Position numbers and translations under genes: made by a program
Notes under the pieces: generated by a model
Told to the model about the DNA's origin: nothing
What the model saw: only the letters and a program-made list of their open reading frames with translations
The model's database searches: none
Part shown: in pieces, positions 28,611 through 58,800 of the stretch
How positions within the stretch are numbered: the first letter of the stretch is position 1
Layout: the number at the start of each line of letters is the position of its first letter
DNA from: Terebella lapidaria
Lineage: Eukaryota; Annelida; Polychaeta; Terebellida; Terebellidae
Direction: 5' to 3'
Assembly: GCA_949152475.1 (NCBI GenBank)
Contig: OX424561.1
Location: forward strand, 27,336,481 to 27,400,480
DNA length: 64,000 nucleotides

Positions 28611-30577
28611 TCATTAACGCAGGTGTGTTATAGGCAATGAAAAAAAATACTGCAGTGAATGGTACTCAATGGACACAATCGATTTGAAGCAATGAACACT
28701 TTTAGAATTGACTAAATTTATTCATTCCACAGTAGAAGCTCGATTTTGTCTACATGATGAGAAATCCCGCATAATATAGTATGACTGAAGCGATCGTCGG
28801 TGTATATATATACATGTACTACCAAGTGAATAAATAGCCCAACATTTCCTTGAGTGATAATGGAAAATCATACTTTAGCATCTAGTGTACCATGAATTGG
28901 CATGATTCGCCTAAAATAAAAGGGCACTATACTGATCCACTGATTCATTTGATGATTGGGCAATTATTAGGCCTATAAAAATATCAAGCCATAACCACCG
29001 TTGGGAGTAATTTGTCCGAGTCCTGAAATGACTACGACTTCCTATTTATTGGAACCGTGCAGTGGTGTTAAAAGAAATGACCACAATTTGAAAGTGAAAT
29101 CACTGAAGATATATTTACTCAATCTGTCCTGGAGAACCGAGTAAAATCGGGATTGATTGAAAATGGAGAAACCCCCCCAAAATTAATGTGAGTATCAACA
29201 TATTACCACTTAAGACATCACAAGTCTGAAGGTTACCACCAGTGATACCGGCAGAGTGATAGGAATGTAAGTATCAATCTATTACTACCGACCCAACAAG
29301 ATTTTGATCATAACAGAATAAAACCTAAAACACAAACTTTGTTGTTTGTTGGGGAATCTTCGAGGGCATGGGGACTACTTTCCATACGCTGTAATGTGTG
29401 CAAGATAATATGCACTAAATGCACCGTCCCTTCATTCAAGATTTATTTGTTTGAGGGCAAATGGACAAAAACAAAAAGGAAACACTCAGAGAATCTTGTG
29501 TCCCCTAGTATGAAAATGAGGTTCCTGTTTGCCACCAGGATCGCCACCATGTAATTCGGGTATAGATAAACCATAGAAACAGTCTACTGTGCCATTTAAT
29601 ACAAAAACGTAATAATGTTGCATTAGAATTTTGTCATGTTCGTCTCTGCATAATGCAGTCAATGGACATGACGTTTTTTGTACTTTTTAGGCACAATAGA
29701 CTGTTTCAGAGCCCCAAAGGCACATGGCATTAGCAGGTACCCCATTATCAACGTTTGAGATAAAACTGTATATTTCTTTCAATTTTGAAACAGAGAACCC
29801 CACGTCTTCAAGCAATGTCTGATTTTCATCCAAAATGAAACGCTTTTAGCCTTCAACTACGAGAATTACCCACACCCCAAAGCTGAAAAAGTGCATATTA
29901 TGTTCGTGTTGCAATTAGTTGTAGTTACAAAGTATTGTGACTGTCTAGTAAATATTTCCTCAGAGTGGCTCATTTGGAACTACGCTCGGTCAGGACGTTT
30001 CAAGGGTAATGTAGTATTGTTATTAGCCGACTAATCACGCAAAAAGTAATCATAATCTTCAATCTAGGTCTTGAGTTCATCAATATACTGACAGCTTGAT
30101 GCGTAGATACTCGACTCGTGATATCTAGCCTGCCCATTAATCTTGATGTACGGGTCATTATAACCACAGTAATCCCGATCACCATAAAAAGTTATTTCCA
30201 ATAACCCATTAACGACCGAATTCTTCCCAGGGTAATTCTGCTGGAATACCAGCGTCAATAGCGTCAATGTCTATACTTCGCTATGATTTTCATCAGTTAC
30301 GAAGACTGCTTCTGTCAAATGATTTGACTCGACATCACGACTATGCTTGGATGTGTTACGGTGGTCAGGGTTCCAGCAGTAATTGTGGTTATCATTAATA
30401 TGGTTCAAGATGAAATCATGAGCTATTAACGTCTGTCCGATGATCTTCAAATGCTAAAGATTATCAACACATAGATGGCAAAATCTGCCTGTTTATTAAC
30501 TACGAACATAGTTTAGGTTGTCTAATTCCGAAATGTGTATTCGTGCCGAACCATTGCTAGAATTTGACGTTTAAAAA
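28611..30577. other. Non-coding spacer before gene B
   Basis: About 2 kb with no credible gene. Fragments of the dispersed repeat appear on the minus strand near 29.19 and 29.26-29.32 kb. It includes the 3' flank of the GT92 gene and the upstream region of Fuseless-like gene B. Confidence 0.4.
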
Positions 30578-33500
30578 ATGGCAAAGAAAGTATGTGACGA
30601 TGATACCTCTTACTGGATTGCCGATACATTTGTATCTGCTTTTCTGTTATATCCTGCAATGGTGTTCTATTGGCGGGGTATATGGGATTTGGTTGGTGTA
30701 TACATATTTCCAGAGGATGAGCTCAAAAACTGCTGGACTATATTCGGCATGGGTTGTGGTACGATTCTCGGATACATTTTTCACCCTCTCGTGGAAAATG
30801 CCTTGCAATTTAAAGGCAAAAAGACGAAGTTCGTACTTACAAGGGTGTACATGGCTGTGTACGCGGTGATGCCGATGGCGTACTGGCGAGGAGTTTGGAC
30901 GCTTGCCGAGTATTATTTGCTGGAGTACGGCTGGAAGGTAGCGTTGGGAAACTATTTTATCATCGAAGTTCTTCTACATTCATTCCGAGTGAGGCAGACG
31001 GCCATTTTCCCGCCAATGTTCGTTCCATTGGATACGAGACCGGACGTTCTGACACCTGGCACGAGGTTCAAGGTCAAGGTGGGCGTGGTGATCATTGAGT
31101 AATCATGCTGTTTACATTGCAGCTCATTTGTTCCTTTCTTCCAAGCTCAGTTTCAAGCAATCATATTAATTCCATGTATGCCTACTGTACATAATGTACG
31201 CCGACGAATGTGGAACCTAACTCGCAAAATCGTATGTTATAAATAAATTGTGGGCTAGATGTAGGAATCGAAAAATTTTGTACACATATCAGACGTTTAC
31301 GGTGGCTTCTACAGTATCTGCCAACATTTTGAATTTTGCTCCCAAGCAAAGATTCAAAGAAGAAATTAAAAATAGGGTCAATTTCAATGCGTCTGAACAA
31401 TTCTTGCTGCATCTTAAACTATTCTCGATGTGCCTAAAATCATGTTCGATTCGACTAAAATATTTTCGATGCGTCTAAAACTAATTTAAATGCGTCTAAA
31501 ACGTCTTCGATGCACCTAAAAAAATTCGATGCGTCTGAAACTATTCTCGAAGCGTCTAAAACATTTTCGATGCATCTATTCTTGATGCGTTTAAAACTAT
31601 TCCAGATGGGTCTAAACCATTTTCGATGGCTCTAAAATATGTTCAATGCCTCTGAAATATTTTCAATGCGTCTAAAACTATTTTAGATGTGTCTAAAAAC
31701 ATTTTGAATGCGTCTGAAACATTTCCGACGTATGCAAATCGAAAATGCTTCATGTTTAATTGCATCTAATACTTAGTAATTTCCGAGGCATAAACATCAG
31801 AACTGTTTCATACGCATCGCAAAGGATTTTCTATGCACCGAAAATATTTTGGACTCATCGAAAATATTTTAGATGCATAGAAAATGTTTAGATGCATTGG
31901 AAATGTTTTAGACATGTCGAAAAAATTTTTGATGTGTCTGAAATGTTTATGATGCATCGGAATTGTTTTCGACACGTCTGAAATGTTCATGACATGTCTG
32001 AAATGTTTATGACGGGTCCGAATTGTTTTTCGACGCGTTTGAAATGTTAATGACGCGTCGGAAATGTTTTCGACATGTCTAGAATGTTTATGACACATCG
32101 GAATTGTTTTCGATGCGTCGGAAATGATTATGACGCGTGGGAAATGTTTTCGATGCGTCTGAAATGTCAATGACGCATCTGAATTGTTTTCGAAGCGTCG
32201 GAATTGTTTATGACGCGTCGGAAATGTATTCCTATTTTTAGGTTACCGGACCTATGGTTTTGGACCTATGGTTGGACCATTTCCAAGGTCACAGGACAAA
32301 ATGGCTGATATCTCGCTTATTATCAACTTTACAGCTTAGGAATCAATTGTGAACATATAGGAAATGATATATGCTGAATATTCTCGTGATCTTGAATTTG
32401 ACCTTTGACTTCATTTTCAAGGTCACAGGACAAAATGGCCAATATTTTGCTTATTATCGACTTTACAGCTTAGGCATCAATTGTGAACATATAGGAAATG
32501 ATATATGTTGAATATTCTAGTGACCTTGAATTTGACTATTGACCTCATTTTCAAGGTCATCAGGACAAAATGGCTAATATCTTTAACAATTATGGACTTT
32601 TGTCGAGGTCAATATGTTTGTTTGCAGACCTGGAAATTCCATTATTGGCCGAGGCGAAGCCGAGGTCAATATGAGGAACTTACAGGTCTGCAAACAAACA
32701 TATTGACCGAGACATAAAGTTCATAATTGTTTTATTATATATTTTTCATTTTGTGTAGAATTTTTGTGTGTCTTGCAATATCAGATCTTCCAAACGTCTT
32801 GACAAATTGATTGCTTTGTCAACATCAGGACTTCCCTTTCTATCGCAAACTCGATGACTGATACACACAATTTACTTGCGATTTATTTAATTATATTCCG
32901 GTAACGAAAGCCAGTCATTTGCGTCAAAATCGTGCCTCTTCGCTGCCAAATTCTTCTCAAATACACGCACACATACCTCGGTCTGTAATTTCGTGTTAGT
33001 ACTGTGTGCGTTATCGAAAATATTTGTAATCTTTTGATCCCTCACAGAGTGGAACCTTCCATTTGCATTTTCATCCTCCTGCATGATTGCCGCTTGCAGT
33101 TATGACTGAAAAGTCGTATGCACGAGGCCGCGTGTGAATCAAATTACCTAGACCTACTTTCGCGCGTTCTGATTGGTGAAAATGACAATTTGACGTCATA
33201 ACAAATCAATACGGCAAATTACGGACTGATCAATATGGATCCAAATGGAAAGAATGTGGTTTTGCGCTGAATATCGTCGTTTGTTGTTTTGATTTCGGAA
33301 CCTATTCATGTAGTATTTTATATCTTTTATATAATAATGCTTATTATTGACTTTACAGCTTAGGAATCAATTGTGAACATATAGGAAATGATATATTCTG
33401 AATATTCTCATGACCTTGAATTTGACCCTTGACCTAAATTTCAAGGTCAGTCATTTTCTTTTCGAGGTCAGAATACAAAATGGCTTATATCTCGCTTATT

Positions 33501-36464
33501 ATCGAATTTACAGCTTAGGAGTCCATAATCATATAGGAAATTATGTATGCTGAATATTTTGGTGATCTAGAATTTGACCTTTGATCCCATTTTCAATGTC
33601 AGAGAACAAAATGGCTAATATGTCGCTTATTATCAACTTTACAGCTTAGAAATCAATTGCGAATAAAGAGGAAATGATATATGCTGAATATTTTCATGAC
33701 CTTGAACTTGAACTTTGACCTCATTTTCAAGGTCACATCACAGAATGGCTAATATCTCACCTATTATCGACTTTACAGCTTAGGAATTTATTGTGGACAT
33801 GCTAGAAGTGATATATTTGTTGAAAAGTTCATGGCCTTGAATTTATCAGTGACTTTATTTTCAACGTCACTGAACAAAGGCTAATATCTAAAATGTATAT
33901 TGTACGGTAACCTTTCTTAGCCCTTGGGCTAATTTTTAAAATTAAAAATAGGGTCAATTTCAACGCTAAAATAAAAATATTTTCTAAAATATTTTCGATG
34001 CGTCTAAAACTATTCTCGATGTGTCTAAAACATATCCGATTCGACTAAAATATTTTCGATGCACTAAAACTATTTTAAATGCGTCTAAACATTTTCGATG
34101 CATCTAAAATATTTTCGATCCGTGTGAAACTATTCTTGATGCGTCTAAAACATTTTCAATGTATCTAAATTATTTTATATGCGTCTAAAACTATTTTAGA
34201 TGCGTCTAAAACATTTTCGATGCCTCTAAAATATTTTCCATGCCTCTAAAATATTTTCAATGCGTCTAAAACTATTTTAGATGTGTCTAAACCCATTCCA
34301 AATGCATCTGAAACATTTCCGACGTATGCAAATCGTAATTACTTCATGTTTAAGATGCATCAAATAATTGCCGAGGCATAAACATCAGAACTGTTTCATA
34401 CGCATCTCAACGTATTTTCTATGCATCAAAAATATATTAGATGCATCGAAAATATTTTACATGCATAGAAAATATTTTAGATGCATTAGGAATGTTTTAT
34501 GCATGTTTAGATGCATTAGGAACGCGTCTGAAATGTTTATGGCGAGTCGGAAATGTTTTCGACGCGTCTGAAATGTTTATGACGTATCGAAATTGTTTTC
34601 GACACGTCTGAAATGTTTATGACACGTCTGAAATGTTTATGACGCACCGAGGATAATGTTTCAAATGTAGCTACGTAAGACGCACCTAACTGCTTCCTTT
34701 GTTCAATCAGCCAGGAATCTCCTGGAAGTATGCTCTCGATTCGCTCTTTAGTCATTTCTTCGCGCTGACTCTGACTATCTGGCTGTGGCAATCGGCCTGG
34801 GAATGTGTGAACATTGCTATGTCTGCCCTCGACTACACCCTTACCAACTACATCTGCCTCGGGGTCGGTTATTTCGCGGTCTTTGTCGTCCTCTTTATGG
34901 ACCCAATCTTCTTGAGGGCTGCCCGGGCTATTGCCAAGAAGCATGCAGGTAGGGGTCTCGATGCCGCATTTATGTTGTTAGTTTCAGAGATACTTCGAGC
35001 AAAACGAACAATGAACATTGTTGACAAGGAAGCTAGCTCCAAGCTATTATTAATCGTTAATCAAACTATCATTTATCAGCGATCTTATTGTGTGTTTTCG
35101 ATTCAATAATTTGAACTTTCAATCGAATGAAACGGATGCACATGGTGCATTGCACAACAAATTGTTTAAATAATGGTATCCGTGAACGAAAATCATGCCA
35201 TTTGCTCTCCACCACTAGACTCCACGCCTGGGCGTCGGTTCCTGGCGCTACTGGCCTGGGAGGACTTTGTGATCTTGGTGGCGTTCTGGTCGCACCTGTT
35301 CCTCTGGCGAGGCTGCTGGAACCTCAACGCCGAATTTATCATCGCCGACCCGGAGCTCGGCGGCTGGGTCAACAACCTCGTGGGCACGGCCGCCTTCCTC
35401 ATCTTCCAGGCACGGAACACCCCCTTCCTTCCCCGCACACTCCCACCCACATTGGTGTACAAGATAGGCGTTCATGATAGGAGAAATTATGATATTAGAT
35501 GTTTTGGTTACAATATAAGCGAGTTCGATCCCTTGCCTCGGCAGTATAATGTGAGGTGGTATGACCAAAAATGACCACCCTTACGCCAGGATCGGCGCCA
35601 ATAAGAGATGTTAATAGAAGCTCGATCATGCTTGTTCGTTTATTGTTGTAAAATAAGTGGAGGTCATTCGAAAATTTGAAATGAATGACTTCTGGAATAG
35701 AAACCAGCCAAACACATAGAAACATCCATGTCAGGGACCACACCGGGGTCGACAATCAGCGGATTGAAAACATTTAGAGTCTGGGACTTAGACTAATTAG
35801 TGTGCTAATGTACACATATTACACCGCTGACAGGTTTACAGTTACGTTGGATACTGTGGCTGTGCCGTAGACGGTTGGCTGGACGGTACTCAGGACAGGG
35901 TGTTCCAAACTCACTACACCAAGGCGGTAGTGGAGTACTTTACAAGGCACAGGGTACGAGATCTCAGTAATAGTCGGTTTCGTCGAATACTATGAAACAC
36001 ATTTGATTTAGCGTTTGTTTATACTGTACCTATATGTATCATTGAATGGATAGTGAAAGTTGCCTACGATGTTCGCATTGATACTCCTATTTGTTATGAT
36101 AGTAATATGGACCTTGCTACAAAATGATATAACATTGACGCTGTGTATCGTACATTTATGAGAAATACATCTGCTTAAATATGATTGTTGATAAGTTTCA
36201 AGCGTTGTTTTATATCGTGATTCACAGAGATCAGATATCGTCGGGAAAGAAAATGGCACAGACGGCAAAGAGAACCCAGGCTATACGGGCACAAAATCAG
36301 GAGTTCATACCATCAGCTATGACAAGGTCAGCGCCTTGGAATCACGTCTTTGGCCGTCGTTAACTTATGAACATTCGATATCCAGAGGTGATTCCGCGGT
36401 AGGATTTGACAACATTGGCTTCGAATTGAATGGCGACGTCGACAATTTTGATCTGACGAACTGA
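30578..36464 (+). CDS. Fuseless-like multi-pass membrane protein, gene B
   Basis: Five exons: 30578-31078, 34711-34948, 35219-35409, 35834-35953, 36228-36464, giving 428 residues. Exon 1 has YWRGIWDLVGVYIFP and AYWRGVWTL; exon 2 has PGISWKYALDSLF; exon 3 has LALLAWEDF and LWRGCWNLNAEF; exon 4 has YVGYCGCAVDGWLDGT and QTHYT. All three WRGxWxL motifs are intact. Exon 5 encodes a hydrophilic tail ending GDVDNFDLTN. Exon order and the first and last junctions match gene A, but introns 2 and 3 are at different positions. The exon 3 donor is CAG/GCACGG, a GC-AG intron, inferred from alignment to gene A and from frame continuity. Intron 1 (3.6 kb) is filled with repeat elements. Confidence 0.82.
31363..32239. 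repeat. Array of GATGCGTCTAAAA-type repeats, inverted halves, copy 1
   Basis: The left half repeats a ~21-bp unit containing GATGCGTCTAAAA; the right half repeats its inverse (GACGCGTCTGAAATG types). The centre carries GACGTATGCAAATCG and CATAAACATCAGAACTG. The segment is therefore a long imperfect hairpin. A second copy lies at 33.93-34.66 kb. Both are in intron 1 of gene B. Confidence 0.75.
32588..32732. repeat. Hairpin with ~45-bp arms
   Basis: GAGGTCAATATGTTTGTTTG on the left is matched by its inverse, CAAACAAACATATTGACC, on the right, with arms extending outward to AATTATGGACTTT and AAAGTTCATAATT. The loop holds GGCCGAGGCGAAGCCGAGG. It probably marks the end of a nested MITE. Confidence 0.65.
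32887..33084 (-). pseudogene. Short ORF inside the nested element, possible tyrosine-recombinase-like remnant
   Basis: A 65-residue frame within the insertion. NAHSTNTKLQTEVCVRVFEK loosely resembles the segment before the core-binding region of Crypton-derived (ZMYM/QRICH1-type) tyrosine recombinases. No catalytic domain follows. It could equally be chance. The identification is weak. Confidence 0.2.
33930..34665. repeat. Array of GATGCGTCTAAAA-type repeats, copy 2
   Basis: A second copy of the array at 31.36-32.24 kb. It shares the AAAATAGGGTCAATTTCAA entry, the central GACGTATGCAAATCG and CATAAACATCAGAACTG, and the switch from one orientation of the unit to the other. It ends just before the acceptor of gene B exon 2 (34711). 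Confidence 0.7.
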
Positions 36465-38498
36465 AATGATATATTAGTGTTAATACCGTTTATCCATGTT
36501 AAGCAATGATCGACATTAAATGGCTTGACCAGGCACATTCAATGAATAGTATCCACTAGCAAACGATCATGCAAACTTGAATTGTATAATGATATGTATC
36601 CACAAAATGTACATGTGTTTTTTTTCACTCCAGAAGACTCTTGAGAAAATATGACATGTAGATGCTTTACGAAAAATAACCCCAAAACAAAATATTTTTA
36701 TAGAATGTTTCGTCAATTGTCAGACAGTCAGTCCTAGTATGTGAATCCAATATACTGGAGTCCTCATTGCAGTTATTATGCATGAGAACTATAACGTTCA
36801 TGCATACTCCCAAGATCAACCAGATCTTACCCTTCTGAGGTCAGTGCAACCCATTATCTCAATGATCTTATCGTACGCAGCAATATTAGGTGAATACTGA
36901 AGGATGATGATATGTAGGACTCATTGAGAAGTGATAAACATACGAGTGTCCTAGTACGTACATGATGTTATTTTGTTTTGATGATTAAGTGGAAAATACG
37001 ACGTGGTCTATCAGTATTCATATGTAATGAGAGTTATTCATGATAAAAGGTTCGAGACCCATAAAATATGTCTCCATTAAATTATAACCATAATTTTGTA
37101 TTTTGTATAATATCTGAGCTTTTTTAATAGTGATGGTACTTACTATTACACCATTATACCTGTCTAGTAAAAAACAATATTCAATGTCATTGCTACCTGC
37201 ATGCAATACACATTGATACAAGTGTCCAATTACCACCAATACAACAGGAGTTTGATGATGACAATACAAAAATAGACGCACTCCCGTCGAACCCTATCAT
37301 TTACACGCTGGGAAAGGCGATCTCCAGAATCTGAGGTTGAACGCCGGAATTGGAGGTTGAACGCCCGAATCAGAGGAAATCACGAAAAGAAACAAAACAT
37401 TGTGAGGGAAAAGCACATAGAAACGTCCCATTGAATGGGCCTATCTCGCCTCGCGCATGCGCAGTCCGTGTTTCCGATCGTTGTAACTGATTGGCCCAGC
37501 GCCATCGGTATCGTGCTAGTCCATTTCTCATGACCTATGAACTTTGACCAAGATATGCGCAGCGGATATTTTGGAACGAGGTAATCTCTCACACATGCGC
37601 AGTTACCACAGCTGAAAAGCCGAGGAAATTCTACGAACGCAGGTATGAATTTTACGAAAATCCGCCCGAAATAACTGGAGTTATAAGTCAAATCAAATTG
37701 AACAACATGTCGTAGGAAGTATGGATGAAATCTGCCTAGGTTTTGAAAACTGACAATGTAGTTATCTCCTGAATTTTTGCACGGAAAGTCATGATTTATT
37801 TGGGTACAACAAAACGTGAAGAATTTTTTGGTGTATCTTTTACCTTGGGCCGAACGGTACGTGCGCGGGCCGATTGAAAAGAACATATTTTTCATCATAA
37901 GGCCAAACGAATAAGGAGACTTGCATGTTTGTGTAACATGCAAAAAATAACTTTAGCATCCACTTAATTCGGTTTATACAGCTGTTTTAGCAGTTTATTG
38001 GTGAGATACATATATTTGTGAGAGGATGAGTGCTGGCATGGTGCAAGATCAAACTAGCTTTATCTGGACAAATGTTATTCTGCCAGATTTTTAAATAGAT
38101 ATTTCAATTCAGATATGACTTGTATTTTCATTGTACATTTAGTGGGAACCATTGGAACATGGGCAAAGTTTGAATTTAATTTGATACAGTGAATATGTGG
38201 GCAATACAGTGAATTTGGTTTGAATGTATTTAAATTTGGAAATCACTGAACATGTATATTTTAATGTATTTGATTTTCAAACTCAAATTATCGGTAGATC
38301 TATTAAGATGATAAAATTGGTAGTAACTGGTAATAACTATGACAATTTTACTTCGTAATTAGAGCAGCATTCCCAGCATGCAGCAAGATATTGTTGAGCC
38401 TTGGGGGTTCCAATTCTTTTCCTGTAGCGCGGTATAGGTATAGCATTGTTGATATGCATAATTGTTTCCGTGAAATATGGTGTATATGGTCAATGGAA
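36465..38498. other. Spacer between gene B and the RAG locus
   Basis: No gene recognised. It contains a minus-oriented dispersed-repeat copy (about 37.19-37.27 kb) and, at 37.40-37.44 kb, a segment with an inverted partner beyond RAG2L (46.95-47.00 kb). GCGCATGCGCAG near 37.45 kb resembles an NRF-1-type promoter site. Confidence 0.4.
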
Positions 38499-38715
38499 AA
38501 TACTGTAAAGCCTTTGATTTTGTAAAGACAGTTAATTTCACGGATTTCTCATTCCTACTCATTTGCGGACATTTAATTTGGTGAAATGGGCGTCTACAAC
38601 AAATAATGCCAATATAACGCAATGTAATTGACATAGTTTCGCGGACATTAACTTTTGCGAGTTTTTCTCAATAGCGAAATTCAATGTCCGCGAAATATCA
38701 AGGGCTGTATAATAG
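38499..38715. repeat. Small inverted-repeat element (MITE-like)
   Basis: The left end (ACTGTAAAGCCTTTGATTTT) and the inverted right end (ATACAGCCCTTGATATTT) are similar. The interior is AT-rich with TTTCGCGGACATTAA-type motifs in both orientations. It lies upstream of the RAG1L exons. Confidence 0.4.
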
Positions 38716-38903
38716 TAATAGAGTGCAGGCTTCAGCTTAAAATGGTCCAGGCTTTGGAAGGAGGATCATAAAAATACTACTATTAAAGTAAAAAGAGGTA
38801 AAAATGTGAAAGGAGAAATATAAGAACCAAATTCATATATGCACATGTAGGCTATATCTTTAACATAACATAAATCAAATTTGCTACTTCTCAGCAAAAG
38901 ATC

Positions 38904-39338
38904 ATGGCCGAATTCCTGAGAAGGTGTTCGGCAAGGGCTGGGAAGAGAATTTTGATGCCCAAGTCACAAGCACAGTCCATGACAAGTGTGCAGGAAATAG
39001 AGAACCTGTACTTTGTTCTCCGAGAGAGAGTCATGAGCCCTCAGCCTGAGGTCGCCCCCGATCCCCCTTTGTCTGACAAAGCCAAGGACCAGGCAGTGAT
39101 TCTCCTGAAACAAGTTTATGTCCTCTTGCGACTGTCTGATCCCCACCATTACGATTTTGTAAAAAAATTGAAGGACATTATTCAGGATGAATTGTGCGCA
39201 CAGCGCAAGTTGGATATCTCAGTCATTTTTGACAGAATTTTCTGGGAGCTTAGAGATCCGGCCCTTCACATTCCTGAACCGTATTGGTTGCTGGACGGGC
39301 TTTTGATGGAATCAGAGTTCAATCCAGTTCGTTCTTAG
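38904..39338 (+). CDS. Unrecognised 144-residue ORF upstream of RAG1L
   Basis: A complete frame with a favourable start context (A at -3, G at +4). It is basic at the N-terminus (MAEFLRRCSARAGKRILMPK), followed by a mostly helical, mixed-charge stretch with a Pro-rich linker (PQPEVAPDPPLSDK), then LLKQVYVLLRLSDPHHYDFV and a C-terminal WELRDPALHIPEPYWLLDGL. No signal peptide, membrane segment or zinc motif. I do not recognise the family. It has the same orientation as RAG1L and ends about 940 bases before the RAG1L start. It could be a separate small gene, a third gene of the RAG element, or a fortuitous frame. A T-rich tract plus CAG just upstream also allows it to be a downstream exon. Confidence 0.45.
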   Translation: MAEFLRRCSARAGKRILMPKSQAQSMTSVQEIENLYFVLRERVMSPQPEVAPDPPLSDKAKDQAVILLKQVYVLLRLSDPHHYDFVKKLKDIIQDELCAQRKLDISVIFDRIFWELRDPALHIPEPYWLLDGLLMESEFNPVRS

Positions 39339-40275
39339 ACTGATAATTTTCATTCGGATGTCATTCACAGTTTCATGGATCATGTAGTTTTAGATGTTCA
39401 AAATGTTCTGTTAAATACTCAAGAGTTTTGCATTGCTGATTAGTTGCATTATCCAAGTAAATTTTCATCAGAAAGGCTCTGTACATGTTTATTGTACATG
39501 TTCATCATTCCTTTGTCATTTTTTTTTTGCCATCAGTTCATGTATTGAAAAGTTTTTTGGTTCAAAACAATCTGTACAGTTAGTCATTCCAGTTATAAGA
39601 ACTGTCAAAATTCCCCAAAGGTTCCAAAAAAATTGTAACGAAATTCATATTTTGTGTAATGATATCATGTGTTATGGTGCTTTGTTTTTGAGTAAATTGT
39701 TTCAGTAAAACTTTAGAATCATTGTTATTTGGTGCTGTGAAGTGCATTGTTTTTTTTTCACAATCCTTTTAATATTTGGTATTGTTGAAAATACAAAATT
39801 GTGACAGGTTTAGCATATTACTTTTTGGCAAGTCTGTAGCACCTACATGTATCAACACAACTGAACTGCATATTTTTTGTAATTCAAAATACTGTACAAA
39901 GTTTTGGCGGATGAAACCCCCAAGGAGAACATTGCCAGCAACCTAAAGTCCACAAATCCACAATTAGTGATTGGTAAAGAAATGAATAGTCTGTGACATA
40001 AATCTAAAAAAGTTAATGTTCATGTGGTCAAGTATATTTCTTTTTGATTGAAGAAATGTTAACGTCTTCATGATGCAATATGTCTTGATGATATTTACTG
40101 GTATAGATGTACATGAAAGTGACTGTTGAGTACTAAGTACATGTCTTGATTATTTTTTTTTACTCTTCAGCCAGTGAAATGATACTATTTACATTTTTCC
40201 AGGTTTATGAGTATCCAGATGTGACCACTTGTGGGAAGCCCATCTTGAGAGAACACATGCACCCTAAGAGAGAGA
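39339..40275. other. RAG1L 5' flank with a probable non-coding exon part
   Basis: AT-rich. A pyrimidine tract and AG at 40201-40202 look like an acceptor, so 40203-40296 may be an internal or leader exon whose 3' part carries the RAG1L start codon. Stops upstream in the RAG1L frame (40222 and after) show the rest of that exon is untranslated in this frame. No TATA box was assigned. Confidence 0.4.
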
Positions 40276-43200
40276 ATGGATGATGAAAGTTCAGCAGTGA
40301 GTGTGCAATGCACTTATATTAAATATACTCAAATGTTCTCTGTGTTTTAGGTTACTGGACCTATGGTAACAATAGTATATGCCAACATATTGATTTTATC
40401 TGTTTGTCTTCAGAGTACCAGTCATGGATCCCAAGATTTGGTCATGCATGTGGAAAAGCTGCAACAACTTTGTCGCTTGTGCGGTGATCGAAGTGGCCAC
40501 AAGTACAGAGAAGTGGAAACATACAAAGTGGACATACATTCTTTTTTGGGCCTGGATCTAGCAAATGACAGTGCAGAGATTCATCCTCGGAAGATCTGCC
40601 CTAAGTGCTATAAGCAACTGGAGAGATACAGGGATGCTGTTAAGTCTGGGAGGGTGTTCAGACCCCAGTCTATCCCAGGCATACCCATCTTCAATGCACA
40701 CAGTGACTCTTGTTCTCTTTGTCACATGCACGCAAAGGCTGGGCGACCTCGTAAACGGAGGAGGATGGACCCTGGACTTCCGGAACCCACCCCCACGGTG
40801 CAGGACACTGGACTTTATGGACCCTCTCCATCAGCGCAGGCACCTGGACTTGCTGGATCCGCTCCCTGTCCCTCAGTACAAGAGCCTGGACTTCATGGAC
40901 CAGCTCCCTCTGTGCCAGACCCGGGACCTCCTGAACCCGCTCCCTCAATGCAGGACCCTGGACTTCCTCAACCCCGTCTCCCGCCACAGGATTCCGGACC
41001 TCCTGAACCCGCTCCCTTAATGCAAGACCCTGGACTTCTTGAACCTCCTCTCCCGCCACAGGACCCCGGACTTCCTGAACCTCCTCTCCCGCCACAGGAC
41101 CCCGGACTTCCTGAACCTCCTCTCCCGCCACAGGACCCAGGACTTCCTGAAGACCTTCTCGCGCCACAAGACCCTGGACTTCCTGAACCCCCTCACCCGC
41201 CACAGGACCCCGGACTTCCTGAAGACCCTCTCCCGCCACAGGACCCCATCCCGCCACAGGACCCTGGACTTCCTGAAGCCGCTGCCTCAACGCAGGACCC
41301 CGAACTTCCGGAGTCCCTCTTTGCTTCAGAGATATTATCGCCATCACGCGTTCCTGCACCTGGACTTTCATTGGAAATAGGGGCTGGTTATGATGATCCA
41401 CAGGAGGGCACAAGTTCAATGAACATTGACCCCATTGAGCTCGATACCAAACCAGGAGCCAAGAGAACTCTTTTCCCCAACAAACCTGAGGAAAGTCAAA
41501 AAACAAAAATCCCATTACTGGACTGTGACAGGTGGTATTTGAAATCGAAGCGCCTCAGGTCTGTGCATGATTATGTTAACAATTTCTGTGATGTGAATAG
41601 TGAGTCTAAAGGAGATGTTTTGCATATGCTGCTTAGAGAACATCTGTTAAACACAAACCAGAAAGAGAAAGCTGATGCCATACGTAGAATCTTGTGTGAT
41701 AGTGCGGTCGATCTTGATGTAGACCAGTGTTTGGCTATCCGTGTGAATCAACTGCAAACGAAAACTGAATATAGATATGAGTATGAAAGCATCTTCAAGA
41801 AAACTGGGAAAAAAGTTCTGCAGCCACCATATGCCCTTGATATTAAAGAAAAATCGTATGTGCCACCAGCAGCCAGATGGTCACTCATTGGTCAAGAGCA
41901 TTATGATCATGTTCATCACACCCCTGCTAAACTAAAAAGTAGCACTGTTGCTTGTTCGACAGGAACAGCCGATTTTGAACCATTTAATATCCTAGAAGAT
42001 TTTTCTTCCTCATTACCAGATATTCCAGTGCCGAATTGCAAAGGGGTGAAATGGGGTTATGCCGATGCTTTGGCAAAAACCTTGGAAGAACTTGATCCTG
42101 TGATCAATGAGAGGCTGTCTGGCTTGGAGGTATCAGAGCATGATAAGTTATTTACAGTGTATGTAAAAGATGGAGCTGATGGTATGGGTGATGTGGAGAG
42201 ACACATGGAGAAATCAGAGCGTTATCTCCCAGACAAGGCCTTCCGCTTTTCATTCGCGATCGTGAAAATATTGTTGTCAGTTGATGGTGAAGATGTCATT
42301 GTATTTGAGGAACAGTCACCTTCTTCAGTTAAAGTTAACAGACCATTGCTCCTCGCAATCGCGGATGAGAACAACAAATCTTCTTGTGTTGTATGTATGT
42401 CTGACATTGAGTGTGAAAGGGAATTTCTGAAAGACAAATTGCTGAAAGTCCATATCTTTGAAAGTGGAGAGCAAAGGTTGTTTCAACTTAAATTTTTCAC
42501 CTCCATGATTGATGAAAAGTTTGACAGGAGTGAAGGTGGTCTGGAATCATCTGGATCTAAGTATCTGTGTACTCTTTGTCATGCTACTAGAGAGAGCGCA
42601 GTCCAAAACCTAGGGTCATTTGTTGTGAGCAGAACCTTAGAAGATACCAGGCGCGTAGCTGAAACATTGAGGTGTAATCCAGATAATCTTAATGATGTTC
42701 AGATGAGCAAGGTTACTAAAGGTGTGAAATGCAAACCAATCTTGATGTCCGAACCTAAACATAGGGGAATTGATGCTACACATGCAGACATCAACATGGC
42801 CTCCTTCTTCAAATCTGTAATTGTCAGGGAGATTGCAGCAGTAAACAAATACGAAGCTACTCAGGACATAAAGCCCTTGATAGATGATGCTGCAGCTAGG
42901 CTTGACTTGCATGTCAAGAAGGAAATCGGCATGAATCCAGCTTTGATGATGCCCGGTAACTATGCACGTCATATGTTTGATGCTGAAAATGAGAAACACT
43001 TCTTGTCACTGATTCCAAATGAGACTAGCAAGGCAAAATTATGTGAGGTGTTCAAGTTATTCAGGTTTCTGAGGAAAATATACAGGTCCATAAACCCACT
43101 AAAGGATTATCCTGATGATGTTAAAATGTACAAGTGTAATGGTGTGAAGATGTGTAAAATTTTGCTAGACCAATTCAGCTATGTCAGGTTTCCAAACTAT

Positions 43201-43491
43201 CTGCATAAAATTGTTGAGCATGGACAGGAATTGATTGAAGATCGAAACGGACCTGGCTCCATTGGAGCAATGTCCAGTGAAGGAAATGAGGCAGGGAACA
43301 AAGTTTTCCGAGCACTGCGAAAACAACATGCTAGGAAAGGTAACACCTATGATGGACTTAGAGATGTTTTGTGGCTACACTGGCTTTACACAAGTCCCAA
43401 ACTTTGCAGGATAGGGGACACACAGAAAAGTCAACAAATGTGTTCAAAATGCTATGCCTACGGTCATAATAAACGTACTTGTACTTTGTGA
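40276..43491 (+). CDS. RAG1L: RAG1-like transposase/recombinase (RAG1L)
   Basis: Exons 40276-40296 (MDDESSA, strong Kozak context) and 40414-43491, joined across a 117-bp GTGAGT...CAG intron, give 1032 residues, about the length of mouse RAG1. N-terminal zinc region: LCRLCG (C27, C30), ICPKC (C69, C72), CSLCH (C107, C110), then basic GRPRKRRR. Residues ~125-310 are Pro-rich repeats; no RING finger is seen. A nonamer-binding-like region spans about 381-438 (KSKRLRSVHDYV...). The catalytic core aligns to mouse RAG1: D596 (DGMGDV), D707 (MIDEKF), E966 (SEGNEAGNK), zinc ligands C726/C729 and H938/H943, and HWLYTS near the end. Val646 and Met852 align to mouse E649 and R848. A CCHC knuckle (C1017, C1020, H1025, C1030) ends the protein. 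It should pair with RAG2L to cut DNA at heptamer-type ends. Confidence 0.95.
40349..40373. repeat. Transposon-end-like footprint in the RAG1L intron
   Basis: AGGTTACTGGACCTATGG matches the left end of the element at 32240 at 17 of 18 positions, and is followed directly by GTAACA, resembling the opposite end. It could be an excision footprint or a minimal remnant. Chance similarity is possible. Confidence 0.3.
40785..41310 (+). repeat. Tandem 36-bp repeats coding the Pro-rich region of RAG1L
   Basis: Unit of about 36 bp encoding variants of QDPGLPEPPLPP. It is most regular at about 41020-41270 and more diverged on the left. The reading frame is kept throughout and copies differ mostly by substitutions and by in-frame deletion, as in the short IPPQD unit. 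Confidence 0.9.
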
Positions 43492-43605
43492 TGCACTTGT
43501 GTGAAACTGTTGATGTCGATGACATGTGTGATATATATGTGTGTGTTTGTGATGATAATACATGTTGATGGTGCTGGAACATTTATGATCTGCAATGATA
43601 TTTGA

Positions 43606-43611
43606 AATAAA
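43606..43611 (+). terminator. Poly(A) signal of RAG1L
   Basis: AATAAA 115 bases after the RAG1L stop codon. Confidence 0.75.
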
Positions 43612-43639
43612 ACTGCATGTAATTCATCTTGAGCATTTG

Positions 43640-43645
43640 TTTATT
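43640..43645 (-). terminator. Poly(A) signal of RAG2L
   Basis: TTTATT on the plus strand, AATAAA on the minus, about 395 bases beyond the RAG2L stop. It lies 29 bases from the RAG1L signal, so the two 3' ends nearly meet or overlap. Confidence 0.65.
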
Positions 43646-44039
43646 GCAACAAAACAAAATGGAAAGATAAATGTAAGGCCACACTCATGATCAACTCACA
43701 TGAAATTCATGACAAAAATAATACACAAAGCAAGTTGCTAAAACATAATAATGATAATTCAAGTATAATTCAGAGATCATGAAATATTGACACGATACGG
43801 ATATCACTATTTCTGACAGCATGAGTAGCACCGAATGAAAAAAAAACCCAGGCAAACTCCCATTTTGATACCTTCCATAGTCATGATAGTGGTGAAGCAT
43901 AACATACGTGAACTGTTACATAAGTGGTATCACTGTTCCTGATAGAATGAAGCACCAATGACATAATACAACATACATGCATAAGTATATAATAATGGTC
44001 ACAATGATTCGAGACATGTCCATGACATCAGTCCAAAGT

Positions 44040-45503
44040 TCACTTTGAGCTTTTCCCTCGCCCTCGGCCATGTCCACGCCCACGACCTCGGCTCTTACCA
44101 GATGTAGCTTTCGATGCAGTGTTTTTTGCCTGTTTACATTGGTCACATTCCCATCTGCCTTTAGGAACTTCCTGTATCCGAGAGCAGAATTGGTGTATCC
44201 AGCGTTTGCATGCTGACTCACACTGAATCCATGAAATTGGAGAGACCTCTGGTGAGTCCTGGATGTCACATTTCTCTTCGAGATCGCAGGCACCAGGACA
44301 GAACGACTTCTTTGTGAGCGCGAAGATACAATGCTCTGTTCCCCCGAAGAACAAAACACACTCGCTGTCGGCGACAACTGCTGAGTGGCCTGCCGTGGCG
44401 GTTGACACATGCTTGGCTACATCCTGGTCCAACAAATCACATGTTCCTGCCTCAATGTTGATAGTGAATGATTTCTCACCCGGTGTCGGTGGAGTATCAC
44501 ACACTGAAGCGCTGTCCTGTTGGTAACCGCCGAGTACCAGTAGCTCTGAGCCAAGTACACAGACACTGTGCATGGACAGCTGGCATGGAACGTTACACTG
44601 CAGCTGGACCTCACTGACGGTGTAGTGTTCCTCCTCTTGAATGGAGAGCACAGTGACTTGGCTCACATCTACACGCTGGAAAGACTGAGATTTCTTGTCA
44701 AAGACAACACCACCGATTATCACGATGCACTGCTGACCTGGGAGGAACGCTGCCTGGTGGAATGCTCGTGGCTGGACGTGTGGCACGTTCAAGACTTTCC
44801 ATGTTCTGGATGTCACGTCAAGTTCATAGAACTTGCCATCCTGGCAAGTCTGTTTGAAACGGCGGACAACTCGTAGTGCGTACCTCTGTTCCATTTCAAC
44901 ACCACCGAAGAGCACCGCTTTTCCGTCCCCGACGATGGTTAGTGAATGACCACTCCTTGGAGAAGGAACCATCCCTGACTGTTTCCGATCATTTGGCAGC
45001 AGCACAGTCGTGGGGTCTTTGAAGACTGTACACTCGAAGCATTTTGTTGATACTTTTCTCAAGATCACTAGTTCATTGGTCATTGACATTGTACTTGTAT
45101 CCATGCCTCCAAACAACAACACTTCTGAGTCGCTCTTTACTGCACTTGCTGAGCTAAGGGGCCTCATCTGTGCTCTGGTGGTCTTTGCTTTGGACACGTC
45201 CGATATGCACACGTCAGTGTCATCAACCTGGAGCTCTATCAACATGATATCACTCGTCAGACTCCAGGTGGCCTCCTCTCTTGGCATTGCACCTCCTGTA
45301 GAAAGCAGAGTCACAACACTGTTATCTCCATCTTCTTCTCTGTCCAGTTGCACCATAACATGTCCTTGTGCTGGAAAGAAACCTTGGAGTTTCAGTTGTA
45401 GCTCAGCTCTTCTCCGCGTGATTTTCCGTTTGTCCATGGACTTCTGGGCATATGGCAAAAATTGCCAGTTCCTAGTTGTCATGTTAAAAATCACTTTTGA
45501 CAC
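44040..45503 (-). CDS. RAG2L: RAG2-like kelch-repeat and PHD protein (RAG2L)
   Basis: A single exon of 487 residues, as in vertebrate RAG2. Six kelch-type double-glycine motifs (STGG at 68-71, LLFGG at 129-133, VLFGG at 197-201, VIIGG at 261-265, VLGG at 323-326, LFFGG at 384-388) predict a six-bladed propeller, the RAG1-binding fold of RAG2. A PHD finger follows at about 402-456: C402, C406, C412, C428, C432, H437, C440, C453, C456, with the WIQC and WIHQFC signatures. In vertebrate RAG2 this domain reads trimethylated H3K4. The propeller runs almost directly into the PHD; the long acidic hinge of vertebrate RAG2 is absent. The basic Gly-Arg-rich tail (470-487) is unlike vertebrate RAG2. It is convergent with RAG1L, 548 bases apart. 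On its own it could be another kelch-PHD protein; the neighbour makes RAG2L likely. Confidence 0.9.
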   Translation of the reverse strand: MSKVIFNMTTRNWQFLPYAQKSMDKRKITRRRAELQLKLQGFFPAQGHVMVQLDREEDGDNSVVTLLSTGGAMPREEATWSLTSDIMLIELQVDDTDVCISDVSKAKTTRAQMRPLSSASAVKSDSEVLLFGGMDTSTMSMTNELVILRKVSTKCFECTVFKDPTTVLLPNDRKQSGMVPSPRSGHSLTIVGDGKAVLFGGVEMEQRYALRVVRRFKQTCQDGKFYELDVTSRTWKVLNVPHVQPRAFHQAAFLPGQQCIVIIGGVVFDKKSQSFQRVDVSQVTVLSIQEEEHYTVSEVQLQCNVPCQLSMHSVCVLGSELLVLGGYQQDSASVCDTPPTPGEKSFTINIEAGTCDLLDQDVAKHVSTATAGHSAVVADSECVLFFGGTEHCIFALTKKSFCPGACDLEEKCDIQDSPEVSPISWIQCESACKRWIHQFCSRIQEVPKGRWECDQCKQAKNTASKATSGKSRGRGRGHGRGRGKSSK

Positions 45504-45858
45504 AATGAATGAAACGGGTCGAAATTATGATTGAAAAATCTCATGAAATACGATCAAACCGTTCAACATGCAAGTCAACTGTGCAAAAATGCATGTAGTG
45601 TAAATTAAAAACAGCTGTTATATACAGCTAAGCCAGACACCAGACCGTGACACCAGGAGACAGAATGGAAATTATTTTCAGCTCACTGGGTGGAATAATT
45701 CACACCTATTGCACAATGAGTTGTTGTTAATCCGCCTGGTGGACTTCAGTTGGGAGACACATGTGTTGATATAACACCCAGTTCATGGATGGTTAAACAC
45801 ATACTTTAGATTGGCATATTGGAAACAATGGCTTTATCATAGGGCCTCTATGTTCAGG

Positions 45859-45894
45859 TTGGTGGTGGTGGTGGGGGGAGAAGGGGGGGGGGGG
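45859..45894 (+). repeat. G-rich tract, possible G-quadruplex
   Basis: GGT repeats pass into long G-runs, enough guanine blocks for a quadruplex on the plus strand. Other G-runs lie near 11.33, 22.13, 48.52 and 61.66 kb. Confidence 0.6.
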
Positions 45895-45898
45895 CAGG

Positions 45899-46027
45899 TC
45901 ACCAAGAATATATTTATGTAAAACTTTTTTTTTTATATTTTGTACACCTGTTTGAATGTAAGATCACCAAGAAGATATTTATGTAAAACTTTTTTTTATA
46001 TTTTGTACACCTATTTGAATGTAAGAT
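45899..46027 (+). repeat. 63-bp direct tandem duplication
   Basis: TCACCAAGAA through GAATGTAAGAT occurs twice in direct succession, with one GAATAT/GAAGAT change and a small T-run difference. A recent local duplication. Confidence 0.85.
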
Positions 46028-49000
46028 TGTGCACAATTACAGACTGCTGTACATGCATCAAAATAGAATAAATAATTTTACTGGAGACCTACGCAGTTAT
46101 AATAACTATGAAATTAGTGTGTAAATTTGATTATTTTGAGAGATGCAAATGGATATAGGGTGTATGATCACTACTAATATACTGCCTATATTTACATGAT
46201 CCATGTATTTCCGAAAATATAAATTACAAATGATATTTTAATAGTTATTTATTTTTTCCCCTTGTCACAAACAAAAGTCCCCGATAGTCTACAATTGTTA
46301 AAGTTAAAGTTATCAGATTTGATATAGCGCTCCTTTCAGCCGAACTAAATCCGCTTTCAAAGGCGCTTGTTCCACTTTTCAATTGCAACTATGCACCAGC
46401 TTGGCATGAAAATATATGTAATTATTACAAATACCAACTAGTACACCCCCACAGTCGCGGTCGTCAACTTTTACTGAGCTCATTTAATATATAGGCAATA
46501 ACAAACTTAATAATAAATCATGATTGAACTAGGCTACATTTGTTATCTTGAGACAAATTCTTCCTTATTTCGATGTATTGTGTTTTATTGTCAATGGAAA
46601 TTGCCTCTTTAACACACTTGAAAAAGAACACTAAAAACATTTTTTTTTCACTTTGTGTCACAATGATGCTTTTGGCTTGGCCTGGGAAAAATGGTTGGAA
46701 ATCGCTCAGATACCCCTATTATCGCCCATCTCGAATCTCGTTCATAAAATGTAAAAGTAAACGGACAGAATAACCTGAATATTGTGGCTTTTTTGATTTC
46801 CCATCAAATATTTCATTTATTGAAGTACTTCTGGTCATGTATCTTTTATTTTTTTATAATGTTTGGACATAAAATGCATTTATACTCGAATATGTGAAGC
46901 AAGCACAGGCACTAGCTCTCGTGGAGATTACCTGAAATCTCGCGTGATTTGGTCATTCAATGGGAGGCAATGCACAACGTTTCTATGTGAAAAGCCCTCA
47001 AAAGGTACGTAAAATCGCCCGTGTCATCGATATAACAGTGTGCAGAATGGTTTGAGATTGTGCAGAATGGTTGTTTAGGTGCAAAAGACTTTATATCTGA
47101 CCAGATTTCCTGAATGTTTGGCGAAATTATTTAGTATTCAACGTGAAATGAAATAAGGCTGCAACTCCACGAGTATGAGGGCTCATAAAAACCGGCAACA
47201 CCGGAATTTACGGAACAGAGTGACGAGTGCTACCAAGAACACATTGCTCTCAGGGTTTGATGACGTCTCTGCTTTGGTGATTTGGGGTTCATGACATACG
47301 AAATATACAGCCATGTGGTCATATTCTTCGCACATGCACCCAAATTCAAGATCCGTTAGATTAGTGTCAAAGAAAATCCGCAAACATAGCATGATATACA
47401 TGCAAGGACAAAACTGTATCTTACCTATCTGCATGTACTCTTTCTATGCTTCACTTACTGCTACGTGTGGTGTTTGCCATTGTCTTCACATGTACATGTA
47501 CGCAGACGAACAAGGCCAAAATAAATACTTATTTCGTTTGTGTCCCCTTGCGCGTCGTCTCAAACGTCGAGTGTCATACTTTTTTTTTTACTTTGATGGT
47601 GTTTTACAGTCATCGGCTACATTTCATTTTGTGTAGGTTAATTAGTGTCCCAAAATGGCTGTATTAATCACTATGGTCAATGATTGCTTGCAGAAACCGA
47701 TCAAGCAATGGATTGTCAAAACTACGAAGCAATCAATTAGCAAAAAAAATCCTTTACAAATTCATTCTTTTAAGATTATACAGTAATCATGATAATACAG
47801 TAACACTGGTGGATAACAAGGAGAGTCGTCCAGTACACGATTTGGTAATTTCGAACATTGGCTTATCTCTTGCGGCGGAAGAAAGGACACTTGATTTTTT
47901 CAAAGAGTCGGCCTTATTTCATTGATTAACGGCAGATTATCCTCACAGAACCGCATAGTGGAAAACTTGTTTTCTATATATAATTCCATGCGTGCGATAT
48001 AGGCCCTCTTGTTTGGAAAAATATGTGTTTATATAGTTGATATATTTGGAAGCTGCCAAAGTGTTTTGTGAAGATTTCTTTTATATTTATTTTTGATTAT
48101 TGCAATTGTTTTGGGTTATATTGTTATTTTCATATCACGTGTTCAACTTTTTATTTGATCCAATATCTAGATTTTTTTAATATTTTGTTTGTTTACAGTT
48201 CAGATAAAATATATGTCTATGTTTAAACAAACGTCTTATGGGAACGAAACCGAAAAACCGATACACAAAACAGGTACTCCGAAAATAAAAGAAAACCAAG
48301 CTGCATACAACCAGTTACAAAGCATAACTGGGACGCAAACCGAAACATTTACTTTTTTTACCTAAGTGAATTTCCCACGTCTGCTACAAGTTTTCATGCC
48401 TAAGTATTTAACCCGGCCATTTAGCGCTCAAATTGGACCATAAGAATGGATTCATATTACATAATATGTATTTTGTCAATCCCCAAGTCTGTCCTCATCC
48501 AAGTAAACCTACATGGGGGGGGGGGGGGGTGGAGGGGAGTATGCAGGTGTCAAGAAAAGTATACTAGTAGGCAGATACGATTTATTGATGAACATATTTG
48601 TCTCACACTCTATCAATACAACCAGCAAAATGATGATGACATGAGGTGATAGTTTTGGTGTCCATGAAATATGCGCAGTAAATTCTGAATAAACACATGC
48701 GTTCAACCAAATAATACAAGAGTTGGTCCCTAGATCTATCAAACTCTTGCGGGAGGCAAACCTAAATTCAACATTTTATCAACTGTTTTATACAAACTAG
48801 CAAAACACATTGCTCTTTCATTGCCACCCAATTCTACCTCATTAAAATATTGTTGTGACGTCACACCATTGTCTGAACAGTGGATTCGTCCGCACGAATC
48901 CACCGTTTGCCCCATACGAATTCATTGGTTCACTGATGCATGTAATGTCATGTTGCACAAGTTCATAATCAGTAATCTCAAGATCATCTAATGTTGAATT

Positions 49001-56999: not shown

Positions 57000-58800
57000 T
57001 CCTCACCTTGTGAACGTATGAATGTAGGTATCAATCTATTACCACAAATACAGTAGAGTTTGATGATGCCAATAACAAACGTAAAATACAACATTTTGCA
57101 ATAGAAACAAAGCCCGACCAAAAAGTTAATCCAAAGACACACTGGCGTCATATATCATGTGTGTTTATAGTCATAATAGGGACATACAACCACACAAAAG
57201 ATCTCACAGCTAGATTCAGAAGAAAAGGCCATGTGGGTGCACTCATGAATAACCGTGGTAAAGTATGGATGCTGAAGCGCGTTAAATGACAAATACATTT
57301 CATGATTGGTATATTATAATTGCTAAGTATGTGAATTAACTATATGAGATAAAGATCGCAGCCAGCTGAATATTGTATATATATAATGAGCAATTGCGGG
57401 CTTCCGTAGCAAAGCAACACTCAAATTTACGGACATGTTTTCATTCGGACTTTATCTTGAATGACCTGGATAAAATGAAATTTATACATACCAAACAACT
57501 CTACAAATTATACAGTGGCTGATGACACTCGCAAAGCAATATCATTTAGGAGTCGTGACGTTGATTCAATAAAGATTGAAAAGGCTCGAGACTAATTAAA
57601 TGGTACGTCTCCAGTGAATGAGTAGTACTATGAAGCAGTGCAACGTACTTCGACCGTGATGTCTATTACAAGAGCGACGCTACTGTGTCTGATTTCAATC
57701 TGTTGGTGAAGACAAAATTTCAATGATGCAGAGCACAAATGTTAGTGAAAGCAAATACTGGATCACTGACATATTCGTTGTATCTTTCTTGCTGAGCCCG
57801 TTCATGTTGTGTTACTGGCGGGGTATGTGGGACTTGCTTGGAGTATATTTGTTTCCAGGAAACGATTTACTTAATGGCTGGACAACTTTTGCTATCGGTT
57901 GTGGACAAATGATTGGTTACATAACCAACCCGCTGCTCTCGAAATATTTGGATGAAAATCGACCGAACAAATGGCTATCGCTTGTACTTACAAAACTGTA
58001 TATGTCAGTCTTTGGGATATTATCAATGGCCTATTGGAGGGGAGTTTGGACACTAGGAAATTATTACCTGCTTGAACTCGGATGGAAAATTCTATTCGTT
58101 GTTTACCTCGTAATTGAGATCGCCCTACATGTACTGCGAATCAAACAAAATGTAATCGTTTTACCACTGGGAATGAGAGTTGACACAAAACCAAACGTGC
58201 TCGAATGTACCACCAGGTTTGGCACCAAGGTATCGCTCAATTTTTAGCAAACATATTTTGGATACTGTTCATGCTTCAGTTTACTGGCTGTATGGGCCGA
58301 CAATCTATTATCGTGGTTTTCATCTGTATGTCTGCCTGTCTGGATGAATTTTCTCATAACTTATTAATTTAAATACACGTAAAACTAAATACAGTTTTCC
58401 ATTTTATTTAATCGGATTCTTTAGTCATTTTGCGCCAATGTTAATGTAATGATTAATGTAATGATGATAATAATGTCTGATTAATATGAGTTCCGGACGT
58501 TGTGGGTCATTTCACGTAAAGGGTACACCTTGAGCCCCACATGGGGTAAATATTTCATGTCTGAATACCATCATAATACTTGGGGGAAACAATTTGTGGG
58601 ATATACTGAGCAAATCCACGTTCAAAATTGTAGTGTTATTTCGCATTCCTGGATAGAACATTGTTTTTAACAAACACATACTAGTTATAAAGGCCCAAAT
58701 TTATTCAGGAAACTTAGGTATGTTGCAAATGAGATGTTTTTACCTGACTTAATTGATTCTTAACCATGAAAAGCAACTGCATTTTTGAACATGTACATTG
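56825..58800 (+). repeat. Tandem segmental duplication, unit 1
   Basis: Begins inside the mariner-like MITE (AAGCTGGAACTTTGTCTTG) and ends at GAACATGTACATTG. Unit 2 (58809-60693) is nearly identical. Unit 1 has an extra ~130 bp at about 57.02-57.15 kb that includes a dispersed-repeat copy. The unit carries a promoter region and one Fuseless-like first exon. Confidence 0.9.
57723..58229 (+). CDS. Duplicate first exon of Fuseless-like gene C (distal copy)
   Basis: An exon of 507 bp, 169 codons, from ATG to a GT donor (ACCAAG/GTATCG), open and intact. It contains YWRGMWDLLGVYLFP and AYWRGVWTL, as in genes A and B. It differs from the proximal copy at about eight residues (for example V/D near residue 19 and G/R in FPGND). 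No exon 2 lies between the two copies, so it is either an alternative first exon spliced to 63178 or an orphan exon from the duplication. Reading past the donor stops after a few codons. Confidence 0.75.

Follow-up and report, generated by a model that had tools for sequence, protein, structure and literature searches.

A very probably complete and recently mobile RAG-like transposon with three open genes in the annelid Terebella lapidaria

The 64,000-nucleotide stretch of the Terebella lapidaria genome considered here (GenBank assembly GCA_949152475.1, contig OX424561.1, positions 27,336,481 to 27,400,480 of the forward strand; hereafter, the window) very probably harbours a complete and recently mobile DNA transposon of the RAG-like (RAGL) type, related to the RAG1/RAG2 enzyme of vertebrate V(D)J recombination. 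A preliminary description of the window had recognized, within 40276..45503, an uninterrupted convergent pair of genes similar to RAG1 (RAG1L) and RAG2 (RAG2L), and had considered them to be recent, active or under selection. The pair was found to be the core of a larger element, the ends of which lie outside that span, along with a third gene (open reading frame 1, ORF1). The element and its flanks are as follows:

37414..46989, no strand assigned: whole RAGL transposon, 9,576 bp
37409..37413, no strand assigned: target-site duplication AAAAG, 5 bp, left copy
46990..46994, no strand assigned: target-site duplication AAAAG, 5 bp, right copy

Boundaries, copies and recent mobility

Comparison of the 30-56 kb region of the window with the 12 other RAG1L loci of the genome revealed an abrupt loss of homology at approximately 37414 and 46989, with sharp ends with respect to the copies designated C3, C9, C14 and C1(85.23M), and to C2, for which only the left end was obtained. 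The flanks carry perfect 5-bp duplications that differ from copy to copy, namely AAAAG in the window, TAACA in C14, TTGCA in C3, CACGG in C9 and CACAG in C1(85.23M). Two diverged elements, C12 (9,255 bp) and C1b (at C1(81.37M), 7,966 bp), are flanked by duplications of TTGTG and CGCGG, respectively, so that 5-bp duplications are present in all seven elements with both ends known, counting C1b, whose ends were located by requiring equal flanks (the best pair contains 12 of the 13 bases of the terminal inverted repeat, TIR, the runner-up 8 of 13). A search for a pair of ends in C5, C4, C6, C1c and C1d found none. The TIRs start with CAC and are A-rich at positions 8-10, as expected for RAGL elements.

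RAG1L was detected at no fewer than 13 loci, the window included, a lower bound obtained by scoring 44 of 1,578 candidates and excluding five low-complexity rows; RAG2L pieces reveal additional degraded copies on C16. C3, C9 and C14 are 98-99% identical to the element of the window, non-coding parts included, while C1(85.23M) and C2 are mostly 85-91% identical to it. The RAG1L frame is open in the window (1042 aa), C3 (1018 aa), C9 (1054 aa) and C14 (975 aa), the length varying in a proline-rich repeat. RAG2L is complete in the window and in C9, has lost its normal end in C14, and is split in C3 by an insert of approximately 4.02 kb. C9 also contains an insert (approx. 3.35 kb), which falls outside the coding frames, and all three genes are open in the window and in C9. 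In C1b, a diverged but full-length element (L029 1869-9834), RAG2L is open in a 500-aa frame and RAG1L is broken up, with a break near L029:5237. From the duplications and the near-identical copies, the element has apparently been mobile recently by RAG-type cut-and-paste, which, along with the substitution ratios given below, bears out the recent, active or selected state previously proposed.

A swarm of miniature inverted-repeat elements sharing the exact 13-bp end was considered and rejected, the 22 genome-wide matches being fewer than the 36 obtained with the reversed control. This search covered the exact 13-bp end only. Half of its matches, 11, are unpaired; the other 11 belong to known elements, as five pairs plus the single left end of C2. 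The C3 insert (approx. 39084149-39088169) has inverted ends TAGTCAGGAGGAA and resembles another DNA transposon. Arrays of a 134-bp repeat are common to the window (several, within 32278-55335) and to L039 1337-4112, around the degraded RAG1L copy C1:66.17M.

The RAG1L-RAG2L pair and its relatives

The coding features of the pair are:

40276..40296 (+): RAG1L exon 1 (MDDESSA), 21 nt, predicted splice sites
40297..40413 (+): RAG1L predicted intron, GTGAGT...CTTCAG
40414..43491 (+): RAG1L exon 2, predicted protein of 1,032 aa in total
40918..41247 (+): 36-bp coding tandem repeat, proline-rich, where other RAG1Ls carry RING
44040..45482 (-): RAG2L, kelch and PHD, 480 aa (frame 44040-45503, first ATG 45482)

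The assignment of the plus-strand gene was confirmed by searches of Pfam profiles and PDB chains. The frame at 40363-43491(+) matches the Pfam RAG1 family with E=1.9e-88 over residues 394-1022, as well as the RAG1 importin-binding family (7.5e-8), and its best relative in the PDB is the lancelet RAG1L (6b40_A, 593 bits, residues 381-1014), followed by vertebrate RAG1 chains (274-289 bits). The start at 40276, already suggested in the preliminary description, appears to be correct because predicted splicing would join MDDESSA in frame to STSHGSQDL, and the intron part is broken by indels in the copies: in C1(85.23M) and C2, aligned to the window, frame-breaking indels precede 40414, while the GTGAGT donor and a CAG acceptor are retained.

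By counting by eye on the PDB-search alignment with mouse RAG1 (frame numbering), the catalytic D-D-E triad, also anticipated, was identified as D606/D717/E976, equivalent to mouse D600/D708/E962, and H807 was found to correspond to mouse H795. At the positions of mouse E649 and R848, RAG1L has V656 and M862. According to PMC7204232, most protostome RAG1Ls have V and hydrophobic residues at these positions, and hydrophobic residues at 848 activate transposition. Thus, as judged from the alignment, V656 and M862 are residues of the transposase type. The C-terminal tail carries the Cx2Cx3GHx4C motif given in the same paper. Of the zinc-binding features of the N-terminal part, the zinc pairs initially noted stand, whereas the RING (ZDD) domain is absent: no RING model of Pfam matches RAG1L at E<=1, and residues 131-385 contain 74 Pro and 1 Cys. 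By its composition, then, this RAG1L is one that lacks the RING, with a proline-rich repeat in its place. ZDD loss has been described in echinoderms, a nemertean and a jellyfish (PMC7204232), and the present protein would be a further case of the RING being optional.

The minus-strand gene also proved to be what had been predicted, a kelch and PHD protein similar to RAG2. RAG2L matches kelch families and PHD fingers, and lancelet RAG2L (6b40_M) at 5.3e-34; the Pfam RAG2 (E=0.0081) and PHD (E=0.00093) models fall below their cut-offs. Its PHD zinc spacing, Cx5Cx15Cx3Cx4Hx2Cx12Cx2C, is the invertebrate RAG2L pattern of PMC7204232. The gene coordinates confirm the tail-to-tail order of RAG1L(+) and RAG2L(-). 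The ratio of nonsynonymous to synonymous substitution rates (dN/dS) between the window and C1(85.23M) is 0.114 for the RAG1L core and 0.181 for RAG2L, indicating purifying selection. In the mechanism that we propose, RAG1L and RAG2L would form a cut-and-paste transposase that may bind the asymmetric bipartite ends, cut beside CAC and insert the element at target sites opened with a stagger of 5 bp; the PHD finger of RAG2L probably reads histone marks.

The position of RAG1L was evaluated in a tree of 43 rows (41 of 43 protein-search matches, two partial ones being left out, plus the window and C1b). These last two group together at 100/100, and the proteins P0001 and P0002 adjoin them at 88/95. 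P0001 carries precomputed families of the zinc-RING type, and P0002 is without them. The closest protein is 54% identical to RAG1L of the window. The latter is found among invertebrate RAG1Ls and apart from the amphibian RAG1s, two in number, in a sampling that did not knowingly cover families A, C and D. The invertebrate origin and the kinship with the V(D)J enzyme that had been put forward are therefore upheld, whereas the tree makes the element a cousin, rather than an ancestor, of vertebrate RAG.

Among known systems, lancelet ProtoRAG (BbRAG1L/BbRAG2L; PMC8289069, PDB 6b40) shares with the present element the convergent pair, CAC ends, asymmetric bipartite TIRs and a zinc-motif RAG1L tail, and it provides the nearest solved structures for both proteins. 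It differs in that its spacers are 27/31 bp rather than 0/12 (PMC8289069), its RAG1L carries a RING and its RAG2L no PHD (PMC7204232), and a third gene is not mentioned in the available sections of PMC8289069. RAGL_B and RAGL_D of oyster and ribbon worm (PMC7204232) are similar with respect to the convergent pair, the 5-bp duplications, AAA at TIR positions 8-10, the PHD zinc spacing, and V and hydrophobic residues at the E649/R848 positions; in contrast, ORF1 distinguishes the element of the window, and molluscan RAG1Ls keep the ZDD that its RAG1L lacks. AanRAGL of the alga Aureococcus (PMC9435367) also has a 13-bp block followed by a second block, asymmetric spacers (4/13) and 5-bp duplications, but the offset is 9 bp instead of 12 and its two genes have the same direction.

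Vertebrate RAG1/RAG2 share the core homology, the D-D-E triad, CAC and spacers approximately one DNA turn apart (11). They differ in that amphibian RAG1 is 33-34% identical over the region searched, and in that the element of the window is a free transposon whose RAG2L is without the acidic hinge preceding the PHD, no acidic stretch having been found between kelch and PHD. The RAGL-A elements of echinoderms and of an acorn worm are complete RAGL transposons with TIRs, which are said to carry such a hinge, from which the present RAG2L would differ, and to stand closer to vertebrate RAG.

Lancelets, molluscs, a nemertean, cnidarians and an alga are already known to host intact RAGL transposons (PMC7204232, PMC9435367), which are among the best living models for the origin of the antibody-recombining enzyme. 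The element described here probably extends them to annelids, with near-identical copies and perfect footprints. No annelid RAGL was found by word search in PMC7204232 and PMC9885083, nor in the titles and abstract openings of the papers listed; PMC9435367 speaks of several lophotrochozoans, and a first report from annelids is not claimed.

Asymmetric ends and a third gene

The ends of the element and ORF1 comprise:

37414..37426 (+): 5' TIR block 1, CACATAGAAACGT, 13 bp
37427..37437 (+): 5' TIR block 2, CCCATTGAATG, 11 bp, spacer 0
37453..37462, no strand assigned: GCGCATGCGC palindrome near the 5' end
46954..46964 (-): 3' TIR block 2, CCCATTGAATG
46965..46976 (-): 3' TIR spacer, 12 bp
46977..46989 (-): 3' TIR block 1, CACATAGAAACGT
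38904..39338 (+): ORF1, third gene, 144 aa, conserved and under purifying selection

In the window, blocks 1 and 2 are separated by 0 bp at the 5' end and by 12 bp at the 3' end. C12 has the same 3' end and the same 0/12 spacers, with a 5' block 2 that agrees at just 7 of 11 bases, and C1b has 0/11 spacers, with block 2 conserved at 10 of 11 bases at both ends. Thus, a common second block with spacers that differ by approximately one DNA turn, 0 versus 11-12 bp, is kept across three subfamilies (the window group, C12 and C1b). The spacers of vertebrate recombination signals differ by 11, and the offset, as read from the ends, is reminiscent of the 12/23 rule. End asymmetry as such is already known in RAGL; the present element adds an offset of about one turn that is kept in three subfamilies, which makes 12/23-like pairing in transposons, outside adaptive immunity, testable. 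The palindrome GCGCATGCGC, similar to an NRF1 site, is retained as GCGCATGCG in C12 and C1b, likewise at the 5' end.

An alternative, which we hold to be somewhat less likely than not, is that block 2 is a site for a host transcription factor and that the 0/11-12-bp offset plays no part in end pairing. The second block of lancelet ProtoRAG, TR5, overlaps a YY1 site and influences transcription (PMC7481187), and CCAT, within the CCCATT of block 2, is also part of the YY1 motif. A further argument against a pairing role is the proposal that the outer 15-17 bp are what invertebrate RAGL chiefly needs, asymmetry having rather little effect on it (PMC7204232), to which the poor agreement of the C12 5' block 2 may be added. 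However, ProtoRAG recombination also depends on TR5 and on spacer length (PMC8289069), and the 11-12-bp offset recurs in all three subfamilies.

ORF1 is located between the 5' end and RAG1L, on the RAG1L strand. It is 98.6-100% identical to the window in C14, C3 and C9, and 97.9% in C1(85.23M); the C2 copy carries a frameshift. Between the window and C1(85.23M), 9.5 synonymous and 3.5 nonsynonymous changes were counted (dS 0.109, dN 0.0104, ratio 0.095; Fisher p 2e-4, by using rounded counts and approximate site numbers), and ORF1 is conserved at 97% as compared with 89% for the 5' non-coding part and 87% for the interval between ORF1 and RAG1L. By this substitution pattern, ORF1 is under purifying selection, and a constrained third gene would be an addition to the picture of RAG evolution. 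C1b contains a homologue (39% identity) in the equivalent position, the stop codon of which coincides with that of ORF1, and C1d a fragment. A genome search yielded 10 matches, seven rows in six elements of the window group, one in C1b and two in new places; these hold degraded element pieces, one with a 5' end and block 2, and therefore all 10 matches lie in RAGL DNA. In a subfamily tree of 13 rows, built without the fragments C6, C1c and C4, C12/C5 form a third subfamily; ORF1 is kept in the other two. The structure predicted from four sequences is all helical (mean pLDDT 80.6), and its comparison with known structures gave no convincing match. No third RAGL gene was found by word search in PMC7204232 and PMC4411706 or in the titles and abstract openings of the papers listed. 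In the proposed mechanism, ORF1 would encode a small helical protein with an accessory role, assisting transposition or regulating it.

Several observations weigh against the interpretation of the element as a complete and recently mobile transposon with three functional genes. The majority of the 13 RAG1L loci have decayed, and the youngest copies, as compared at the sequence level, differ by too few changes to show selection (for RAG2L of the window and C9, 1 synonymous and 4 nonsynonymous, ratio 1.18). ORF1 was not detected in the C12/C5 subfamily, and no relative of it was found outside the RAGL copies of the genome, so that it may be dispensable or lineage-specific. These ORF1 results, with no relative to point to a function, would also fit an ORF1 that is not a transposition protein at all and represents a captured fragment of a host gene or belongs to an alternative transcript of RAG1L. 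We consider this rather unlikely by taking into account its own stop, placed identically in the window group and C1b, its low dN/dS, the restriction of all its genome matches to RAGL DNA, by which a host source was not found, and the lack of a match among the RAG1L proteins compared. A stronger proposal, that of a three-protein RAG system in which ORF1, as a dedicated partner of RAG1L-RAG2L, controls assembly, targeting or regulation, and in which the ends, with their offset of about one turn, impose on an invertebrate transposon a rule equivalent to 12/23, is speculative and in our opinion improbable as a whole; if true, asymmetric pairing and a helper protein would be open to study outside adaptive immunity. 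Domestication of the window copy, which would then be a RAG1L-RAG2L pair of the host with the transposon ends retained, a fate argued for RAGL genes of the sea urchin (PMC9885083) and compatible with open genes under purifying selection, is most improbable in view of the perfect TIRs and target duplications and of the copies at other sites (C3, C9 and C14) that are near-identical even in non-coding parts.

Surroundings and host genome

The RAGL transposon is located inside an apparent array of Fuseless-family genes (PF15993), pieces of which were recognized at 24836-25474(-), 30575-31099(+), 35170-35571(+), 57693-58244(+) and 63070-63756(+), that at 35170 just below the cut-off. A glycosyltransferase family 92 frame of 435 aa is found at 27303-28607(+), with two weak insect matches among 18. 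A 24-bp tandem repeat of approximately 102 copies with a strong strand skew occupies 17338-19768, and positions 1-1900 are GC-rich (57-61%) and contain several Arg-rich frames that overlap; a scan of five of these gave no match over the Pfam cut-off.

In the same assembly, a second match to COX1 was found on C417 (44633-46450); it is split in two, has TGA codons and may be a nuclear copy, an intron-split gene or derive from another organism in a mixed sample. The mitochondrial contig C438 carries on one strand, in the invertebrate code, nad3, nad2 (a proton-antiporter family frame in Pfam), cox1, cox2, a 63-aa frame that is atp8-like by eye and has no Pfam match, and cox3; ARAGORN and Rfam found no tRNA on this stretch. 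A conserved annelid mitochondrial order has been described (PMC4866719), nad3-S1-nad2 and cox1-N-cox2 are conserved annelid clusters, and atp8 precedes cox3 in a sipunculan (PMC2667193); the gene order read from C438 suggests an annelid-like arrangement.

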